Shown here: in pieces, positions 2,192 through 47,562 of the stretch
Position numbering within the stretch: position 1 is the first letter of the stretch
How the letters are laid out: the number at the start of each line of letters is the position of its first letter
Source of the DNA: Bacteroidota bacterium
Lineage (GTDB): Bacteria > Bacteroidota > Ignavibacteria > Tepidaquicellales > Tepidaquicellaceae
Assembly (NCBI GenBank): GCA_018266845.1
Contig: JAFDZO010000012.1
Span: 62,001 to 126,000, forward strand
Direction: 5' to 3'
DNA length: 64,000 nucleotides
Position numbers and translations under genes: made by a program
Notes under the pieces: generated by a model
Seen by the model: only the letters and a program-made list of their open reading frames with translations
What the model was told of the DNA's origin: nothing
Database searches by the model: none

Positions 2192-3361
2192 TTATCTGCT
2201 TTTGTTAATATAAATTCTCGGAATGCGCGGAGTAATATTGCTTGTGATTTCATAGGGAATCGTGCGCGCCATCTTTGCAAGCTCATACACGGGATACTCC
2301 TTGCCGAACAAAATTACTTCATCATTTATTTTCACTTTCGGCTTTGTACCTATATCAACCATAATCCAGTCCATACACACAGCCCCAACAATATCGTACA
2401 ATTTATTTTTAATGAGAACTTTTCCTTTATTTGTCAGCGAGCGCGGATAGCCGTCTCCATAACCTACTGGAATTGAGGCAATGTAAGTATCTTTTTCGGT
2501 ATAAAATTTTCTTCCGTATGAAATGCTTCTGCCCTTCGGCACTTTTTTTATGAAGCGCACGCGGGATTTAAAATTCATCACAGGATTTAATCCTGTTTTT
2601 ATGTTATAGTATTCATCATCGGGATAATATCCATATAGCGAAATTCCCGGTCTTATAAAGTTAAAGTAATTTTCGTTGTAATTAAACACTCCGCCTGTGT
2701 TTGAAATATGCCTGTACTTAAACTTATGAAGATTTTCCTCAACCTCGTTCACAAATTTTTTAAATTGCTGCACCTGATGAACTGCAAATTTATGCTTTGG
2801 TATTTCGCTGGTTGCAAAGTGAGAATAAATCCCCACGGGATTTAAATTCTTCATCTTCACAATTTTTGCAATTGCTTCATAGGCAGTTTCTATCGGAAAA
2901 CCTATTCTGTTCATACCGGAATCCACCTGTATCTGCACATTCAGCTTTTTATTAAATAACGCAGCAACAGAATTCAGCTTTTTCGCATCCTCTAAATCAA
3001 CAATTGTATAATAGAAATTTTCATTTGCAATAACTTCAAGAAAAGCTTTTGAAGTCGGCAGAGTACCCATACAAAAAACAGGAGTATTTATCTTTTTTGC
3101 CTTTAAATATGCCGTAAGCCGAAGGGATTCTGAATAATCGGCGGTTCCGAGAAAATCTGTTCCGGCTAAGGCAAGTTCTTCCGCGCATCTTAGCATTCCG
3201 TGACCGTAGGCATCGGCTTTTACTATCGAACAGACAAAGTTATTCTCAAAATTTGTTTTTGAAAATAGCTTTTTAATGATAAAGAAGTTATTTTTGAGAG
3301 CTTTTAAATCAATTTCTGCATAAGAATCATTGATTAAAAGAGAGGAGCTTTTCTTACCCAT
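2192..3361 (-). CDS. alr: Alanine racemase
   Basis: A 389-residue PLP-dependent enzyme that interconverts L- and D-alanine in the cytoplasm, supplying D-Ala for peptidoglycan. The PLP lysine is K48 in the hallmark VKADAYGHG. The second catalytic base, a tyrosine, is in SISYG near residue 280, followed by the substrate-pocket stretch PVGYGDGYPR and the C-terminal 'CMDWIMVDIG' segment. MNRIGF near residue 150 and RPGISLYG near 240 are further family landmarks. Length is normal for Alr. A possible -7 element TAAGTTTG lies only a few bases upstream of the ATG (3376-3369 on the minus strand), which would give a very short leader. It diverges from dnaA across the candidate origin. Confidence 0.96.
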   Translation of the reverse strand: MGKKSSSLLINDSYAEIDLKALKNNFFIIKKLFSKTNFENNFVCSIVKADAYGHGMLRCAEELALAGTDFLGTADYSESLRLTAYLKAKKINTPVFCMGTLPTSKAFLEVIANENFYYTIVDLEDAKKLNSVAALFNKKLNVQIQVDSGMNRIGFPIETAYEAIAKIVKMKNLNPVGIYSHFATSEIPKHKFAVHQVQQFKKFVNEVEENLHKFKYRHISNTGGVFNYNENYFNFIRPGISLYGYYPDDEYYNIKTGLNPVMNFKSRVRFIKKVPKGRSISYGRKFYTEKDTYIASIPVGYGDGYPRSLTNKGKVLIKNKLYDIVGAVCMDWIMVDIGTKPKVKINDEVILFGKEYPVYELAKMARTIPYEITSNITPRIPRIYINKSR

Positions 3362-3852
3362 ACGATAACAAACTTACTTAAAGTAAACGTTAAAAAGAAT
3401 TGAATAATTTTTATATTTTATTGGCTGTAAGGAAAAGCAACGAAAAAAATTTTTCCGCAGAAAGTTTTTTCAAAAAATATTTTGCAGATTTTTCATAGGA
3501 GAAAAAATTTATTTTGCAAATACATTAATTTCTTCTTGACAGTATGAACAAGTTTTGGTAATATTAGTATGAAAATTTTAGAGACACTTTTTTGTTAGAA
3601 CTTTGTTAATAACTTTTTCATCACACCTTGTGTTTTTTAAATTCAGTATTAAGAATACATAATTATTAACATTCTTTGTTAATAACTTTTTATTCAAAGA
3701 ACAAAACTATAAAAATCAATATTTTATAATTATAGTTCACTGTTTAAAGTTTTTAGTTGTAAGGGGAAAAATCGAACAGATTTTTAGTTAAGACTTAAAG
3801 TAACTTTTTAAGCAATTTTTAATTGTTAATAATTTTTCTAAAACAGATTTAA
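3362..3852. other. Candidate origin, left arm: TTATTAACA boxes between alr and dnaA
   Basis: A 491-base gap without a credible gene, very AT-rich. It holds four exact copies of TTATTAACA: 3604-3612 (-), 3663-3671 (+), 3677-3685 (-) and 3824-3832 (-). Two of the minus copies sit in the longer shared word CTTTGTTAATAACTTTTT. The 9-mer differs from the classic DnaA box TTATCCACA only at positions 5 and 6. A run of almost pure A/T at about 3700-3740 could be an unwinding element. No perfect TTATCCACA was found. The dnaA promoter must also lie here, but no clear TAnnTTTG element was identified on the plus strand. Confidence 0.6.
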
Positions 3853-5346
3853 ATGAGTATATCCTCTACCCCAGCCTTATTATTAGAAAAACAGAGCGAT
3901 TTAGAAATAAAAAGAGAGTTTTCAGCAGAGCATGAAGCAGTCTGGAACAATTTTTTAGAGCTTCTCAAACTCAATATTCCCGAAAATGAAATAAGAACAT
4001 GGTTTTCAATTATTAAACCGAAAAGTTTCGAGAATAATATTCTTACCATATCCGTTCCAAGTGAAGACTATTATGGAATAATAGAAAAAAGATATAATAA
4101 ATTTATCTCAAATATCATTTCAAGCGGTCTTCTTGGTGAAAACGGGAAACTTCAGTATGAAATAAAAGATGCAGCAAAAGAACCGGTAAAACAGGAAAAT
4201 AATGCCGTTGAAAATGTTTACAGCATTAGACAAAATGTTTATAGAAATGATATTCAACCGGTTTCAGAAGAAACTACTGAAGTATATGAGCATAACTTAA
4301 ATCCTAAATATATTTTTGAACACCTTGTAAAAGGCGAAAGCAATGAGCTTGCAGTGGAAATTGCATACGCCATTACAAATAATCCGGGTAAAGCATACAA
4401 TCCATTCTTTGTTTACGGCGGTGTAGGACTCGGAAAGACTCACCTCATTCATGCCATTGGTAATGAAATAATGAGAAAGTCTCCGGGTAAGAAAATTTTC
4501 TATACAACCACTCCCGATTTTACGAACAGATTTATAGACAGCATCAGCAAGAATCGCGCAGGTATTTCACAAAATGCAAGCAGCGCATCACAACTTGATT
4601 CATTTTATAAATCACTCGATGTATTGATTATTGATGACATTCAAAATCTCAGCGGAAAAGATAAGACGCAGGATTTTATGTACCAGATTTTCAATTCGCT
4701 CTTTGCTGAAGGTAAGCATATAATTTTTTCCAGTGATAAGCCAATAAATCAGATTCAGGGGATTGAAGAAAGATTGATTTCACGTTTTCAATGGGGACTT
4801 ACAATAGATATTCAGCCGCCAAGTTGGGAAATGCGCGTTGCAATCATCAAGAAGAAACTTGATGAATATAACATGACTGCTCCCGACGATGTCATTCATT
4901 ACATTGCTACAAATGTGAAGGATAGCATAAGAACAATTGAAGGCTGTATTATAGGAATTACAAGTGAAAGTGTATTTAGTAAAAAAGGCGAGATAACTTT
5001 AGAGATTGCTGAAAAGGTAATCGGCAGAGTAGTAGGTCATGTGAAGAGAACTAAAAATATCACGATAGAATCAATAATTTCTACCGCAGCTTCATTCTTT
5101 AATGTTTCCGAAAATCAAATACTTTCAAAAAAGAGAACTAAGGAAGTTGCCTATGCAAGACAGGTATCAATGTATCTTGCAAAAGAGCTTACCACATATA
5201 CATTACAGACAATCGGATTGAATTTCGGCGGTAAAGATCATGCGACGGTTCTATATGCTTATAACACAATCTCAGAGCAAAGTAAAACAAATCATAAAAC
5301 GCTGAGTGATATTACTGAACTGAAAGAGAGAATAAGACAGCAGTAA
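3853..5346 (+). CDS. dnaA: Chromosomal replication initiator protein DnaA
   Basis: Binds and opens the origin and loads the helicase. Domain I (about residues 27-100, with NEIRTWF) is preceded by an unusual extension of about 26 residues. A short linker follows, then the AAA+ domain: Walker A GGVGLGKT at 189-196, Walker B DVLIIDD, and sensor and box VII motifs (SRFQWGL). Domain IV at the end has the helix-turn-helix signature FGGKDHATV (458-466). Where E. coli has R432-D433-H434-T435, this protein has K461-D462-H463-A464, two changes in the DNA-reading segment. 497 residues is somewhat longer than usual because of the N-terminal extension. It is flanked by TTATTAACA clusters and followed by a strong terminator, so it is probably monocistronic. 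Confidence 0.97.
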   Translation: MSISSTPALLLEKQSDLEIKREFSAEHEAVWNNFLELLKLNIPENEIRTWFSIIKPKSFENNILTISVPSEDYYGIIEKRYNKFISNIISSGLLGENGKLQYEIKDAAKEPVKQENNAVENVYSIRQNVYRNDIQPVSEETTEVYEHNLNPKYIFEHLVKGESNELAVEIAYAITNNPGKAYNPFFVYGGVGLGKTHLIHAIGNEIMRKSPGKKIFYTTTPDFTNRFIDSISKNRAGISQNASSASQLDSFYKSLDVLIIDDIQNLSGKDKTQDFMYQIFNSLFAEGKHIIFSSDKPINQIQGIEERLISRFQWGLTIDIQPPSWEMRVAIIKKKLDEYNMTAPDDVIHYIATNVKDSIRTIEGCIIGITSESVFSKKGEITLEIAEKVIGRVVGHVKRTKNITIESIISTAASFFNVSENQILSKKRTKEVAYARQVSMYLAKELTTYTLQTIGLNFGGKDHATVLYAYNTISEQSKTNHKTLSDITELKERIRQQ

Positions 5347-5719
5347 TAGTTAATAAATATACACTCATTACCAAGCTCATGCTTTGTGATATAATGAAAA
5401 TTTTAAGGGATACAATTTTTTTGTATCCCTTTTTTATTCTCATTACCTGATAATAAATGTTAATATCTTCTTTATAATTTTTTAGCGGATAATAGTTATT
5501 AAAAAATAAATAGATTTTATTATTAACATTTTTTTAACAATGTAAATTTTGTTCAGAACCGGTGTATTTATTAACAATGTTATCAGCATTATTTCTTTTA
5601 AAATTGATACAAAAAACGGAATTATATACTTTACTGACATTATTAACATCATTACTACTACTATTACTTCTTTTAAATAAATAATATAAAGTAATAAGTG
5701 TTCAGTTGTTAAAATCCTG
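5347..5719. other. Candidate origin, right arm: TTATTAACA boxes between dnaA and recN
   Basis: A 373-base AT-rich gap. Three exact TTATTAACA copies, all on the plus strand, lie at 5520-5528, 5568-5576 and 5640-5648. One-mismatch relatives are AGTTAATAA at 5348-5356, TGTTAATAT at 5458-5466 and TTTTTAACA at 5531-5539. The dnaA terminator (5405-5436) separates these from the gene. The same orientation of all three exact copies contrasts with the mixed orientation of the left arm. An 85-codon open frame on the minus strand crosses this region but looks accidental. The recN promoter should also be here. Confidence 0.55.
5405..5436 (+). terminator. Rho-independent terminator after dnaA
   Basis: An 11-bp perfect stem, AAGGGATACAA (5405-5415) and TTGTATCCCTT (5421-5431), closes a five-T loop and runs into a T tract. 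It lies about 58 bases after the dnaA stop. Confidence 0.85.
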
Positions 5720-7420
5720 ATGATAGAAAAACTCTTCATAAAAAATTATCTGATAATAAAAGAAGCGGAAATTAATTTTTCCGGCGGACTGAATATTCTC
5801 ACGGGAGAAACCGGCGCAGGAAAATCAATTATCCTTGATGCGCTTGGAATGATACTTGGTGAGCGTGCAGATTATTCTCTGATAAGAAAAGATTCGGATA
5901 AAATGATTATTGAAGGGTATTTTGATTTTAAGGATAACAAAAAGGTAATATCATTTCTTAAAGATTTAGAAATAGAAAATGAGAACGGATATATTATTAT
6001 CCGCAGGGATTTACTTAAAAAAGGTATAAGCAGAAATTTTATAAATGATGTTCCCGTAAATATTTCCGACCTGAAAGATCTGGGAAATATTATAATTGAT
6101 ATACATTCTCAGAATGAGCATCAGTCGCTTCTGAATAAAGAAACTCACATAGAAATTCTTGACCAGTATATAAATAATGAAACATTAAAAAATAAATACG
6201 ACGAAAGTTTTTCTGCATTAAAGCAAAGTATAAAACAATACGAAGAACTCGTAAGCAGAAAGGACGAACTTGCCGAAAGAAAAGAGTTTCTTGAGTTTCA
6301 GCTGAAAGAAATAAACGATATAAATCCTCTGGAAAATGAAGATGATGAACTTGAAACCGAACTTAACAAAATGGAAAATTCAGAGGAGATTTCAACTTCG
6401 CTTAATACAACTCTTAATTTTTTATATGAATCTGATGCGAATGTAATAAATGAAATTTCTTCTGCGGTAAAAGAACTGAAGAAATTATTAAAGTATGATG
6501 AATCGCTTGAAGAAAATATAAAGCTGCTTGAAGAGAGTCTTGTTAACGTAAAAGAAGTTTCAAACTTTCTTATTTCTTACAATGAAAATATAAATTTTGA
6601 TGCGGAAAGAATTGAACACATCAGGGAACGCCTGGGCAGTTTGAATTTCTTAAAAAAGAAATACCGTTTGTCTGTAAATGAAATTATTGAAAAAGCGAAA
6701 GAGATAGGAAAAGAACTAAACATAGCTGAAAATTTTGATTACGAAACGGAGCAGGCAGAAAAGAATATAAAAGAAAAGAGAGCCGAAACTTATAAATTAG
6801 CAAAAGAAATTTCAGATGTAAGAAAAAAGAAATCAAAGGAACTTGAAAAAAATATCACGGCAATTTTGAAAGAAGTGGGTTTAGAGTCGGCAGAATTTAA
6901 AGTTAATTTTGATGTGTACAAATATCAGGAAGAAAATCTATTATCCGAAAATAAAATATTACTTACATCCACGGGATTTGATGATATTGAATTTTTTATA
7001 AAAACGAACAAAGGTTCAGATTTTGCGCCGCTGAAAAAATCTGCTTCAGGGGGAGAAATTTCACGGGTTATGCTGGCAATAAAATCAGTTCTTTCGGATT
7101 CCGATGAAATAGAAATTTTAGTTTTTGATGAAATTGATGCAGGAATCAGTGGAAAAACTGCCGATAAAGTCGGAAAAGTACTCAAAAAGCTCTCAAAATC
7201 GCATCAGATTATTTCAATCACTCATCTTCCGCAAATTGCTTCTCAAAGCGATTCTCATTACTTTGTAAGTAAAAAAGATTTCAACAAAGAAACTGTTGCC
7301 GAAATAAAACAGTTAAGCGGAGAAGAGAAGATTCTTGAAATTGCTAAACTCTTGAGCGGTGATAAAGTAACTGATTCAGGTATTGCCAGCGCAAAAGAAT
7401 TAATAGCTTCAGTAATATAA
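5720..7420 (+). CDS. recN: DNA repair protein RecN
   Basis: An SMC-like ATPase for recombinational repair of double-strand breaks. The N-terminal half-site has Walker A GETGAGKS at 29-36. A long Lys/Glu-rich coiled-coil region covers about residues 155-390 with the expected break in the middle. The C-terminal half-site has the ABC signature SASGGEISR and Walker B VFDEIDAGISG at 468-478, followed by SITHLPQIA, a very typical RecN string. 566 residues is normal. It starts directly at the edge of the candidate origin region and is followed 32 bases later by an unrelated gene. Confidence 0.96.
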   Translation: MIEKLFIKNYLIIKEAEINFSGGLNILTGETGAGKSIILDALGMILGERADYSLIRKDSDKMIIEGYFDFKDNKKVISFLKDLEIENENGYIIIRRDLLKKGISRNFINDVPVNISDLKDLGNIIIDIHSQNEHQSLLNKETHIEILDQYINNETLKNKYDESFSALKQSIKQYEELVSRKDELAERKEFLEFQLKEINDINPLENEDDELETELNKMENSEEISTSLNTTLNFLYESDANVINEISSAVKELKKLLKYDESLEENIKLLEESLVNVKEVSNFLISYNENINFDAERIEHIRERLGSLNFLKKKYRLSVNEIIEKAKEIGKELNIAENFDYETEQAEKNIKEKRAETYKLAKEISDVRKKKSKELEKNITAILKEVGLESAEFKVNFDVYKYQEENLLSENKILLTSTGFDDIEFFIKTNKGSDFAPLKKSASGGEISRVMLAIKSVLSDSDEIEILVFDEIDAGISGKTADKVGKVLKKLSKSHQIISITHLPQIASQSDSHYFVSKKDFNKETVAEIKQLSGEEKILEIAKLLSGDKVTDSGIASAKELIASVI

Positions 7421-13333: not shown

Positions 13334-15454
13334 ATGACTGTTGAAAAATTCAGTTATGATAATAAGATTGTTAGAGATTTTGCGATAGCTTCGGTTATAT
13401 TTGGCGTGGTTGGAATGCTGGTTGGATTACTGGCAGCTCTGCAGTTGGTGCACCCTGTTCATAATCTATCTAATCAGTTTACATCATTCGGCAGGATAAG
13501 ACCTTTGCATACCAATGCAGTTATCTTTGCGTTTGTCGGTAATGCAATATTTATGGGACTCTATTATTCCCTGCAAAGAGTCTGCAAAGCAAGAATGTTT
13601 TCTGATTTGCTAAGCAGAATTCATTTCTGGGGATGGCAGATTATTATTGTCTGCGCAGCCGTTACTTTGCCTCTCGGTATTACAACAGGTAAAGAATATG
13701 CAGAGCTTGAATGGTTTGCAGATATTATGATTGCTCTGGTTTGGGTAGTTTTTGCTATTAATATGTTCGGAACAATTTTTAAGAGAAGAGAAAAGCATAT
13801 TTACGTTGCAATATGGTTTTATATTGCTACAGTTGTTACTGTTGCAGTGCTTCATATAGTAAACTCCATAGAGCTTCCTGTATCGTTATTAAAAAGCTAT
13901 CCGGTTTATGCAGGGGTTCAGGATGCCTTGGTGCAATGGTGGTATGGACACAATGCAGTGGCTTTCTTTTTAACAACTCCATATCTTGGCTTGATGTATT
14001 ACTTCCTTCCTAAAATGGCAGGTCGTCCGGTTTACTCGTATAAGCTTTCCATAGTTCACTTCTGGTCATTGATTTTCATTTACATCTGGGCAGGTCCGCA
14101 CCATTTATTATATACCGCTCTTCCTGACTGGGCGCAGTCGCTTGGAACGGTTTTTTCCGTAATGCTTATTGCTCCGTCTTGGGGAGGTATGATTAACGGA
14201 CTTCTAACATTAAGAGGCGCATGGGATAAAGTTAGAGATGATGTTGTTTTAAAATTCATGGTTGTTGCGGTAACATGTTATGGTATGGCTACTTTTGAAG
14301 GACCGATGCTTTCATTAAAAAATGTTAATGCTATAGCGCACTTTACCGACTGGATTGTAGCGCACGTTCACATAGGAGCATTAGGATGGAACGGCTTCCT
14401 TACTTTCGGAATTTTATATTGGCTAATCCCGAGAATTTATAAAACAAACTTGTTTTCCAAAAAAATGGCTGCCTTCCATTTCTGGATTGGCACGCTCGGT
14501 ATCGTGTTCTATGCTGCGCCGATGTATTGGGCAGGAATAACGCAATCATTAATGTGGAAACAATTCACACCGCTCGGAGTTCTTCAATATCCTAACTTCC
14601 TTGAAACCGTTATTCAGATTATTCCGATGTATATGGTAAGAGCATTGGGCGGAGCCTTGTTTCTGACAGGCGTTCTGGTGATGGTGTATAACTTAGTAAA
14701 GACGATGAAACAAGGGTCGTTGGTAGCAAATGAACCTGCAGAAGCTCCCGCGCTTGAAAAAGGATTTGTGGATAACTCATCGAAGCACAGATGGCTTGAA
14801 ACACGTCCCGGTAAATTTGCAATATTTGCAACCGTAGCAGTATTAATCGGCGGTATTATTGAAATGGTTCCGACATTCATGATTAAATCCAATATCCCTA
14901 CAATTCCTAGTGTCAAGCCTTATACTCCGCTTGAGCTGCAGGGAAGGGATATTTATGTTAGAGAAGGATGCTACACCTGTCACTCGCAGATGATAAGACC
15001 TTTCAGGTCTGAAACTGAAAGATACGGAGAATATTCAAAAGCAGGTGAATATGTTTATGACCATCCGTTCCAATGGGGTTCAAAGAGAATAGGACCTGAC
15101 TTAATGAGAATTGGAAAAAAATATCCGAATCTGTGGCACTATAATCACATGGAAAATCCGCGCAATGTTTCGCCGGGTTCTATTATGCCAAACTACGACT
15201 GGCTGATGAAACAGAATCTTGATAACTCAACTTTAGAGAGCAAGATAAATGCAATGAGAACCCTGGGAGTTCCGTATGCGCCGGGTTACGAAAAACAGGC
15301 GCTGCAAGACTTGATGAAGCAGGCAGATGAAATTACACTCGACTTGCAGAAGAACGGCGCGCCGGCTCAAAATAACAAAGAAATTATTGCTCTTATAGCC
15401 TACCTGCAGAGAATGGGCACGGATATAAAAGCAGATAGTAAAGCTGAAAAATAA
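13334..15454 (+). CDS. ccoNO: Fused cbb3-type cytochrome c oxidase subunits I and II (CcoN-CcoO)
   Basis: 706 residues. The N-terminal part (about 1-475) is CcoN, the catalytic haem-copper subunit with about 12 helices: haem ligand in RPLHTNAV, CuB ligands in QWWYGHNAV and GPHHLLYTALPDW, and the late haem ligands in VAHVHIGALGWNGF. After a linker and one helix (about 490-510) comes CcoO, with one haem c site C546-x-x-C549-H550 (GCYTCHSQMIRPF) and the axial-Met region GSIMPNYDW. In proteobacteria these are two genes; a single fused gene is common in Bacteroidota relatives. It reduces oxygen to water with high affinity and pumps protons. It is preceded by a strong ribosome-binding site. Confidence 0.96.
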   Translation: MTVEKFSYDNKIVRDFAIASVIFGVVGMLVGLLAALQLVHPVHNLSNQFTSFGRIRPLHTNAVIFAFVGNAIFMGLYYSLQRVCKARMFSDLLSRIHFWGWQIIIVCAAVTLPLGITTGKEYAELEWFADIMIALVWVVFAINMFGTIFKRREKHIYVAIWFYIATVVTVAVLHIVNSIELPVSLLKSYPVYAGVQDALVQWWYGHNAVAFFLTTPYLGLMYYFLPKMAGRPVYSYKLSIVHFWSLIFIYIWAGPHHLLYTALPDWAQSLGTVFSVMLIAPSWGGMINGLLTLRGAWDKVRDDVVLKFMVVAVTCYGMATFEGPMLSLKNVNAIAHFTDWIVAHVHIGALGWNGFLTFGILYWLIPRIYKTNLFSKKMAAFHFWIGTLGIVFYAAPMYWAGITQSLMWKQFTPLGVLQYPNFLETVIQIIPMYMVRALGGALFLTGVLVMVYNLVKTMKQGSLVANEPAEAPALEKGFVDNSSKHRWLETRPGKFAIFATVAVLIGGIIEMVPTFMIKSNIPTIPSVKPYTPLELQGRDIYVREGCYTCHSQMIRPFRSETERYGEYSKAGEYVYDHPFQWGSKRIGPDLMRIGKKYPNLWHYNHMENPRNVSPGSIMPNYDWLMKQNLDNSTLESKINAMRTLGVPYAPGYEKQALQDLMKQADEITLDLQKNGAPAQNNKEIIALIAYLQRMGTDIKADSKAEK

Positions 15455-45022: not shown

Positions 45023-47562
45023 TCAGGTATAAGCATGATATTTTTATAACCGGCTTCCTTCATTTTTGAAAAATCCGTCATCACAGTTTTATAGTCACCG
45101 TTAAGCCATCTTCTTGCCTGGTCACTGAAATTAGGATGGAGCGGCTGTCCTGATTGTCCTGTAGGAATAATCGTGAAGTAGCTTTTCATATTTGCCAAAT
45201 CAACAATCATCCTCATTGAAGAGCCCAGAAAAACATCGTAGTTGGTTTTTTCCAGCGAGCTGTAAAAATTATATTCGGCACAGGCAATTGTGGTACCGCT
45301 GCCGCCGATTTCAAAAGGACCTATGTTTAAAACTGAACTTAACGCAGGGACACCTCCTAAAGGATGCTTTAATAATACTTCGTGTATGTTTCCCCATCCC
45401 CATTTATTAACATCATCTGTTCCGAATTTTTTCTTCAAGGCATTGATTGCATCTACAAAACTTTTCCTTAAAAGAAAATCACGGGTTAAATTATCGAACA
45501 GCCATGATTTGTTTTCCGCTAGCAGCTTGCTTGTATTTCTTACGGGAATATTTTTAACGAATAAATAATCTCTGAATAAATCTTCGCCAAGCTTATCTCT
45601 GTAAATGTTATTATATAACTCAACTTCAAACTGCGAATATACCGCTGCCATAGGAGAAACATACTTCAGCTCATAATCCCATTTCTTCAGCAAATCAAGA
45701 AAATATGTTTCCTGTTTATCTATTATCTTTACATTTGCATACGCATCAAACAAGTATTTACAGAATTCTTTTGCTTGCAGTGAAAACACATCTCTTTGTA
45801 CAAGCTTTGTTTCCTCCGCAGTAAAATTATTTCTTTGCTTCAATAAATCTTCAATTCTTTGAGCGCGATAATACGGTTCATATAAATTTGAAATATAGTA
45901 CTTATAATTCTTTTCCGGTTTGTTGTTCGCTGTAACAATATAATCTTCTTTGGGATTATAAGAAGAAGGGAGTTCGCTATAAGGAACAAATCCCGTCCAC
46001 TCTATTTCTCCCGAAGAAGGATAAAATGCCAGATTATCATCAGTTAAATTTTTTCTTATGGGAATTTTTCCTGCCGCAGTATATCCAATATTTCCATTAG
46101 TATCAGCATAGGTGAAATTAAGAGCAGGTAGATTGTATAACCTGAAAGCGTTTTTAAACTGCTCCCAGTTTTTTGCTGTGTTTAAATCGTAGAAGCTTTG
46201 AATTTCATCGGACATCTCAAATCCCGTCCATTTGAAAGTAACAATCTGATTTTTTCCTGCAGTGAATTTAAGTTTAGATGAAAATCCTGCTGAACTTAAG
46301 TTAGAAATCACGGGACCGTTTTTTGTTGTATAAACTGTCAGATCATATTCATCATTAATATCTTTTATCTTAATACTTTCAATCAGTGAGTCAATCGGAT
46401 ACGATGCTCCGTTTAAAACATATTTTTTGTTATCAGAAGAATCGCGTTCGAGGATATAAAAATCGGAATCATCATTCATCAAATTTGTAATACCCCACGT
46501 TATAACATCATTGTGGCCAATTACAATAAGCGGACATCCGGGAAGTGAAAATCCCGATACATTTGAGTTATTGCTTTTATTGTATAAATGAATTTCATAC
46601 CACTTTGCCGGAGTGGAGAGCGAGAGATGCGGGTCGTTTGCTAAAATAGGTTTTTTACTCTCGGTCTTTTTGCCGCCTACTACCCATGAATTACTCCCTA
46701 TGTGTGTTCCATCTATTCCAAGGAAATGCTTTGCATCAATTGTTGTTTTATAAAAATCGTTTCCAATCTCAGTAAGATTTCTGAAATTATCCTCAAGTAC
46801 TTCAGCAGTTTTTTTCTTAGATTTATTCTTATCCTGTGAGGGCGGCGGAGTAGTTCTTTTAAGTGTGTCATTCTTTTCCGCTACTTTATCTCTGTCAGAA
46901 ATTATGAACGGCTTATCTTCAGGATAATTCGGGAAAAACTCTTTTGCTTTTTCGTAGCTGAATTTTTTCACAATCTCTCCGAAAAGAAAATCTGTGTACC
47001 AGGAAATATTCAGCTCCCATCCCATCAAACGCACAATCATCAATGAGTGCTCAGGCTTCCATTCGTACGGTTTATAATTCAATATATCAAATTCAAGCGG
47101 AAGCTTTTGTGAATGAGTAGTTATAAAAAAATTTACACCGTTGGCATATTGTTCGAGAATTTCTTTTGACTTAGGGGAGATTTGTTTATAGAGGTCGGCT
47201 GCAATTCTTTTAATACCAATTGTTCTGAAAAGCTTATCATACTCCAGAACATCTTTTCCGAAAATTTCGGAAAGACGTCCTTCGGCAGCGCGGCGGGAAA
47301 TATCCATTTGCCAGAGCCTGTCTTGCGCGTGCATATATCCCATTGTAAAATACATATCGGCTTCGTTTTCGGCAGCGATGTGAGAAACACCAAAATCGTC
47401 TTTATATATATTAACTGCTTTTGAAATTCCTTTTACTTTAAAAGAACCTGTTTCAGAATAGAAAGATTTTTTAGTGAGATTGCTGAATAGAAAAAACAGC
47501 GTAACGCCCGCAGCAATAATTAAAATAAGGTATCCGTAAACTCCGGTAAGAAATTTTTTCAA
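45019..47562 (-). CDS. Penicillin acylase family protein
   Basis: About 847 residues if translation starts at the TTG at 47562, which gives 'KKFLTGVYGYLILII' as a membrane anchor; an ATG at 47688 gives 889 residues but would overlap the divergent P450 gene. An Ntn-hydrolase precursor: an alpha part with MGYMHAQDRLWQMD, a spacer, then the beta part starting at the nucleophile Ser in GSNSWVVGG (residue 290 in the short form), with ILANDPHLSLS and VIGHNDVITWGITN. Autocleaves to a heterodimer that hydrolyses acylated amines such as acyl-homoserine lactones or other amides. The true substrate is unknown. Confidence 0.92.
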   Translation of the reverse strand: MKKFLTGVYGYLILIIAAGVTLFFLFSNLTKKSFYSETGSFKVKGISKAVNIYKDDFGVSHIAAENEADMYFTMGYMHAQDRLWQMDISRRAAEGRLSEIFGKDVLEYDKLFRTIGIKRIAADLYKQISPKSKEILEQYANGVNFFITTHSQKLPLEFDILNYKPYEWKPEHSLMIVRLMGWELNISWYTDFLFGEIVKKFSYEKAKEFFPNYPEDKPFIISDRDKVAEKNDTLKRTTPPPSQDKNKSKKKTAEVLEDNFRNLTEIGNDFYKTTIDAKHFLGIDGTHIGSNSWVVGGKKTESKKPILANDPHLSLSTPAKWYEIHLYNKSNNSNVSGFSLPGCPLIVIGHNDVITWGITNLMNDDSDFYILERDSSDNKKYVLNGASYPIDSLIESIKIKDINDEYDLTVYTTKNGPVISNLSSAGFSSKLKFTAGKNQIVTFKWTGFEMSDEIQSFYDLNTAKNWEQFKNAFRLYNLPALNFTYADTNGNIGYTAAGKIPIRKNLTDDNLAFYPSSGEIEWTGFVPYSELPSSYNPKEDYIVTANNKPEKNYKYYISNLYEPYYRAQRIEDLLKQRNNFTAEETKLVQRDVFSLQAKEFCKYLFDAYANVKIIDKQETYFLDLLKKWDYELKYVSPMAAVYSQFEVELYNNIYRDKLGEDLFRDYLFVKNIPVRNTSKLLAENKSWLFDNLTRDFLLRKSFVDAINALKKKFGTDDVNKWGWGNIHEVLLKHPLGGVPALSSVLNIGPFEIGGSGTTIACAEYNFYSSLEKTNYDVFLGSSMRMIVDLANMKSYFTIIPTGQSGQPLHPNFSDQARRWLNGDYKTVMTDFSKMKEAGYKNIMLIPE

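Follow-up and report, generated by a model that had tools for sequence, protein, structure and literature searches.

In Bacillus subtilis, the basal unwinding system (BUS) of oriC consists of two co-oriented neighbouring DnaA boxes, a short spacer and trios with a central A, among which 3'-GAT-5' is the commonest exact form (PMC8287927, PMC10721633). To count as a BUS, a site must have one or more DnaA boxes and three or more trios whose central base is A, with a spacer no longer than 16 nt between them (PMC8287927). Lineage-specific boxes and bipartite origins are already known in Epsilonproteobacteria, where dnaA has a box cluster on either side (oriC1-dnaA-oriC2) and the downstream arm holds the unwinding element and the trios (PMC5043019). 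Boxes of that group (core TTCAC) have T at position 5 and C at position 6, and the DnaA carries a Lys432-type helix with variable residues 435 and 439 (PMC5043019). In E. coli DnaA, base-specific contacts are made by residues 399, 423, 432-435 and 438-439 (PMC5043019). The 9-mer TTATTAACA was earlier proposed as the DnaA box of Mycoplasma hominis, M. mobile and M. arthritidis, with one or two copies upstream of dnaA and, in M. hominis, none between dnaA and dnaN (PMC2751442). In Melioribacter roseus, which is related to the Ignavibacteria, the predicted oriC lies beside dnaA (PMC3534657).

The locus described here resembles each of these systems in part. It shares with the B. subtilis BUS the co-oriented neighbouring boxes, the short spacer and the central-A trios, but its boxes are TTATTAACA rather than the standard TTATCCACA, the spacer from the nearest box is 3 nt, and a second family of the order has one clear box only. 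It shares with the Epsilonproteobacteria the clusters on both sides of dnaA, the downstream unwinding element with trios, a T in position 5 of a lineage-specific box and the Lys432-type helix; however, position 6 is A, the lineage is unrelated and the sites are read from the sequence rather than from footprints. Its boxes are identical to the predicted Mycoplasma ones and more numerous, and the use of TTATTAACA in both groups is likely convergent. The origin proposed here flanks dnaA, whereas that of M. roseus was predicted between dnaA and dnaN.

Locus and genome

The window (the whole stretch of 64,000 nucleotides analysed, contig C3:62001-126000) belongs to a 3.53 Mb genome of the class Ignavibacteria in 46 contigs. 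The genes around the locus are as follows.

2192-3361, minus strand: alanine-racemase-like ORF (name read off the sequence, without a family search)
3853-5346, plus strand: dnaA, 497 aa (Pfam DnaA_N, Bac_DnaA and Bac_DnaA_C)
5720-7420, plus strand: RecN-like gene

In named records, the closest relatives of the DnaA gene were found in Ignavibacteria MAGs (55-62% identity). A genome of the same genus, G001, carries a dnaA with 85% identity to that of the window. The gene that follows dnaA (3853-7420 for the two) is RecN-like, instead of dnaN.

Candidate DnaA boxes beside dnaA

The gaps beside dnaA measure 491 (left) and 373 (right) bases, as previously given. Seven exact copies of TTATTAACA, four in the left gap and three in the right gap, were found where the original prediction had placed them.

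3604-3612, minus strand: left-arm box L1, exact TTATTAACA; same in G001
3663-3671, plus strand: left-arm box L2, exact TTATTAACA; G001 has TTGTTAACA
3677-3685, minus strand: left-arm box L3, exact TTATTAACA; same in G001
3824-3832, minus strand: left-arm box L4, exact TTATTAACA; same in G001
5520-5528, plus strand: right-arm box R1, exact TTATTAACA
5531-5539, plus strand: right-arm weak box TTTTTAACA, one mismatch
5568-5576, plus strand: right-arm box R2, exact TTATTAACA
5640-5648, plus strand: right-arm box R3, exact TTATTAACA; second abutting box of the unwinding module, 3 nt before the trios

One-mismatch copies had been announced too; five were found in the right gap and none in the left. 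Dinucleotide shuffles of both gaps (n = 5000) contained 0.12 copies of TTATTAACA on average and 3 at most, and 0/5000 reached seven, in agreement with the earlier estimate of well under one copy by chance. Elsewhere in the window, TTATTAACA was found as two lone copies, at 45404 and 48058, isolated occurrences of the kind already mentioned in that prediction. Over the genome (3.53 Mb), 124 copies of TTATTAACA were counted vs 153 for the reversed control word, and the signal is therefore local, without global enrichment. With 0.07 copies expected per random 2 kb, the clustering at dnaA has a Poisson P of about 2e-12. The density of the word elsewhere, which had been proposed as a check, spoke for the locus: no second cluster was found among 100 listed places of the 124 copies, with at most two copies in any other 2 kb. 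DnaA-box-like 9-mers are thus clustered above chance beside dnaA, as in a DnaA-dependent oriC.

Both gaps were searched for TTATCCACA and none was found, so that the locus is not an origin of the canonical TTATCCACA type. The earlier statement that no standard box is present was right for the dnaA gaps and wrong for the window, which has one TTATCCACA, at 14767-14775 (minus strand), within a coding gene. The ORF that contains this sole copy (13334-15454, 706 aa) reads like a fusion of the cbb3 oxidase subunits CcoN and CcoO.

Conservation across Ignavibacteria

The dnaA flanks were compared across three sets of genomes: 26 other members of the family (f1), 11 members of a second family of the order (f2) and 14 from other families of the class. 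All 9-mers in the flanks were counted without a prior motif and ranked by sharing, the window being included in the f1 count. At dnaA, TTATTAACA was shared more widely than any other 9-mer, both in f1 (27/27 genomes, 124 copies) and in f2 (11/11 genomes, 33 copies). In the other families, TTATCCACA ranked first (10/14 genomes), and no TTATCCACA was found in the dnaA flanks of the 27 f1 genomes or of f2. The f2 flanks often retain one TTATTCACA. Genome-wide, G001, G014, G029 and G032 each have a single same-strand pair of TTATTAACA spaced by 80 bp or less, and it is located at dnaA. Boxes of f1 are mostly on the minus strand in the left arm (78 vs 16) and on the plus strand in the right arm (27 vs 3), and the arms therefore point outward from dnaA. 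The two-arm layout and the word TTATTAACA are conserved across both families. In f2, two copies of TTATTAACA were also seen inside dnaA itself, at the 3' end of its coding region (G029:C1:760578-760639 and G032:C1:529595-529656).

Mere compositional drift, by which C5C6 would have become TA in AT-rich genomes with the preference of DnaA unchanged, would fit the AT-rich gaps and an AT-rich genome of the class with Ser435 (G051) that mixes TTATTAACA, TTATCAACA and TTATCCACA. Drift should, however, yield many A/T variants, and one exact word dominates in 38/38 genomes. Moreover, G010, whose flanks have 42-47% GC, still uses TTATTAACA, without TTATCCACA, and G053, at 28-30% GC, retains TTATTCACA/TTATCCACA. 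Drift is thus an unlikely explanation. The family-wide shift from TTATCCACA to TTATTAACA most likely reflects a changed sequence preference of DnaA, tied to altered residues of its DNA-reading helix.

DnaA protein and box specificity

After alignment to 1j1v_A, the recognition helix reads GGKDHATVLY in the window DnaA vs GGRDHTTVLH in E. coli, and the window protein has Q423, K432, A435 and Y439. Threonine 435 reportedly confers sequence-specific binding in DnaA, according to the title of a 1997 paper. Ala replaces this E. coli residue in the DnaA of both f1 and f2; the motif is mostly GGKDHATVLY in f1, GGRNHATVIH in f2 and of the D-H-S/T type in the remaining families compared. Among 245 sampled genomes of the class, Ala435-type dnaA matches were restricted to f1 and f2. 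Outside the order, 15 of the 17 loci that matched the pattern were not dnaA. A box cluster was looked for near dnaA in G276 and G279, two further genomes of the phylum with KDHATVLH, and none was found.

In the DnaA tree, f1 and f2 are neighbours, each on a long stem (1.85 and 1.79 changes per site), and are split from the rest with 99/97 support, a grouping for which the program warns of long-branch joining. A single event may therefore underlie the entire correlation between box and residue.

Ala435 as sole determinant was considered and found unsupported: a Bacilli DnaA with RDHATV (L271) occurs with mixed TTATCCACA, TTATTCACA and TTATTAACA, and the Ala435-type G276 and G279 lack a cluster near dnaA. 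Three mollicute-like genomes with TTATTAACA (L287, L290 and L303) have S or A at position 433 and keep Ser435, where the present protein has Ala, and another one with TTATTAACA (L291) retains the D-H-S motif. No single residue thus accounts for TTATTAACA, which often goes with a change within the D-H-S/T motif.

We put forward, tentatively, a broader reading: an order-level clade of Ignavibacteria may have switched its initiator-origin code. Its DnaA would no longer need the C6:G pair and would prefer TTATTAACA via changes in base-reading residues: Ala at 435 in f1 and f2 alike, Lys432 and Tyr439 in f1, and Asn433 in f2. Such a DnaA/oriC pair would be orthogonal to the canonical system.

Predicted unwinding module in the right arm

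A BUS, missed in the original prediction, was recognisable in the right gap. Besides box R3, it comprises the following elements.

5631-5639, plus strand: first abutting box of the unwinding module, TTACTGACA, two mismatches; identical in G001
5652-5675, minus strand: eight DnaA-trios, bottom strand 3'-AAT GAT GAT GAT AAT GAA GAA AAT-5'; score reached by 0/100 shuffles
5676-5712, no strand: AT-rich stretch adjoining the trios, a putative extension of the unwound region

The order is TTACTGACA-TTATTAACA-TCA, followed by the trios on the bottom strand. The boxes (5631-5648) end 3 nt before the trios, or 12 nt when counted from the first box, for a limit of 16. At least three consecutive NAN trios are expected, with 3'-GAT-5' favoured; eight are present, three of them exact GAT. 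With boxes clustered left and right of dnaA and an unwinding element downstream, the locus has the sequence layout of a bipartite origin.

In the right gap of G001, TTACTGACA and the eight trios are kept, the second box (R3 counterpart) is degraded to ATACTAACA, and the module falls in the most conserved part of the gap. In most f1 genomes, two 9-mers abut and are followed after 3 nt by CTA-type repeats, an arrangement that shuffles rarely match (usually 0/100 as good). Most f2 genomes have a single clear box, 3 nt and CTA CTA CTA, also rarely matched by shuffles. The spacing from box to trios is thus 3 nt in both families. Under the criteria used, a clear module was absent in about 9/27 f1 genomes and 3/11 f2 genomes.

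According to the proposed mechanism, both arms would be bound by DnaA at their TTATTAACA boxes. A pair of DnaA molecules on the abutting right-arm boxes (5631-5639 and 5640-5648) would nucleate a filament of ATP-DnaA. As in the B. subtilis BUS, this filament would form on the bottom-strand trios at 5652-5675 and open the AT-rich stretch that follows them.

Transcription around dnaA

Two transcription signals were identified around dnaA.

3536-3564, plus strand: putative dnaA promoter TTGACA-N17-TAATAT (10/12 consensus, TG before the -10), upstream of all left-arm boxes
5405-5431, plus strand: strong intrinsic terminator of dnaA (hairpin -16.9 kcal/mol, z -6.35)

The sequence TTGAC[AT]-N16/17-TAATAT was found about 320-430 nt upstream of dnaA in 24 of the 26 f1 relatives, and the f2 form is TTGACA-N17-TAT[TA]AT. 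Bacteroidota usually rely on other promoter elements, and a near-perfect sigma-70-type promoter before dnaA is striking for a group near them. The left arm is sited in the leader, between this conserved promoter and dnaA, and DnaA autorepression there is therefore probable; the left arm may also interact with the right arm. The terminator separates dnaA from the right arm and insulates the unwinding module. In G001, a similar hairpin was seen directly behind dnaA.

GC skew and location of the probable origin

The own-genome skew was computed on one 193 kb contig, the genome consisting of 46 unordered contigs. On this contig, the cumulative GC-skew minimum lies at C3:65036, i.e. window position ~3036, 0.6 kb to the left of the left-arm boxes. 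The comparison of skew and locus suggested earlier thus placed the minimum beside the left arm, as expected for an oriC. The sampled skew of G001 passes from negative to positive around dnaA. In G029 and G014, the sign changes near dnaA, with noise. The sampled skew of G025 flips at dnaA also (1.705 Mb) and has a stronger minimum near 1.05 Mb, where no box cluster was found among the matches listed. The additional minimum (1.05-1.60 Mb) is possibly explained by an inverted or rearranged segment.

The clusters could be DnaA sites that regulate only the expression of dnaA and recN, with the origin elsewhere; the position of the left arm between promoter and dnaA and the strongest sampled minimum of G025 would agree with this. 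Such a role leaves aside the conserved unwinding module of the right arm, behind the dnaA terminator, and the skew minima at dnaA in the contig itself and in G001, and no other cluster was present among the listed copies of the genome; we consider it improbable. A regulator other than DnaA that reads the palindrome GTTATTAAC, present in 24/27 f1 genomes, was rejected on flanking bases as a most improbable reader of TTATTAACA, since G precedes just 40/123 copies of the word, which moreover takes the place of the TTATCCACA of sister families and abuts the trios at a fixed spacing.

The region is therefore very probably a chromosome replication origin with two arms around dnaA, TTATTAACA boxes that would be bound by DnaA and a BUS-type opening in the right arm. 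The bipartite origin on a variant box, as first proposed, is supported by the skew, the clustering, the conservation of the word and of the two-arm layout in two families, and the unwinding module.

Significance

In the literature searched, mostly without subscription papers and DoriC, the Mycoplasma paper was the only one found to propose TTATTAACA as a DnaA box (PMC2751442). Three features appear unreported in the same literature: the use of TTATTAACA throughout this clade of Ignavibacteria, its occurrence together with a BUS, and the accompanying DnaA changes. As TTATCCACA is the default word of origin-finding programs and BUS surveys, these may overlook the origins of this clade or misplace them. 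Running from outgroups with TTATCCACA through mixed genomes to TTATTAACA, the clade forms a natural series for testing how an essential initiator changed along with its many sites and which DnaA residues set specificity.
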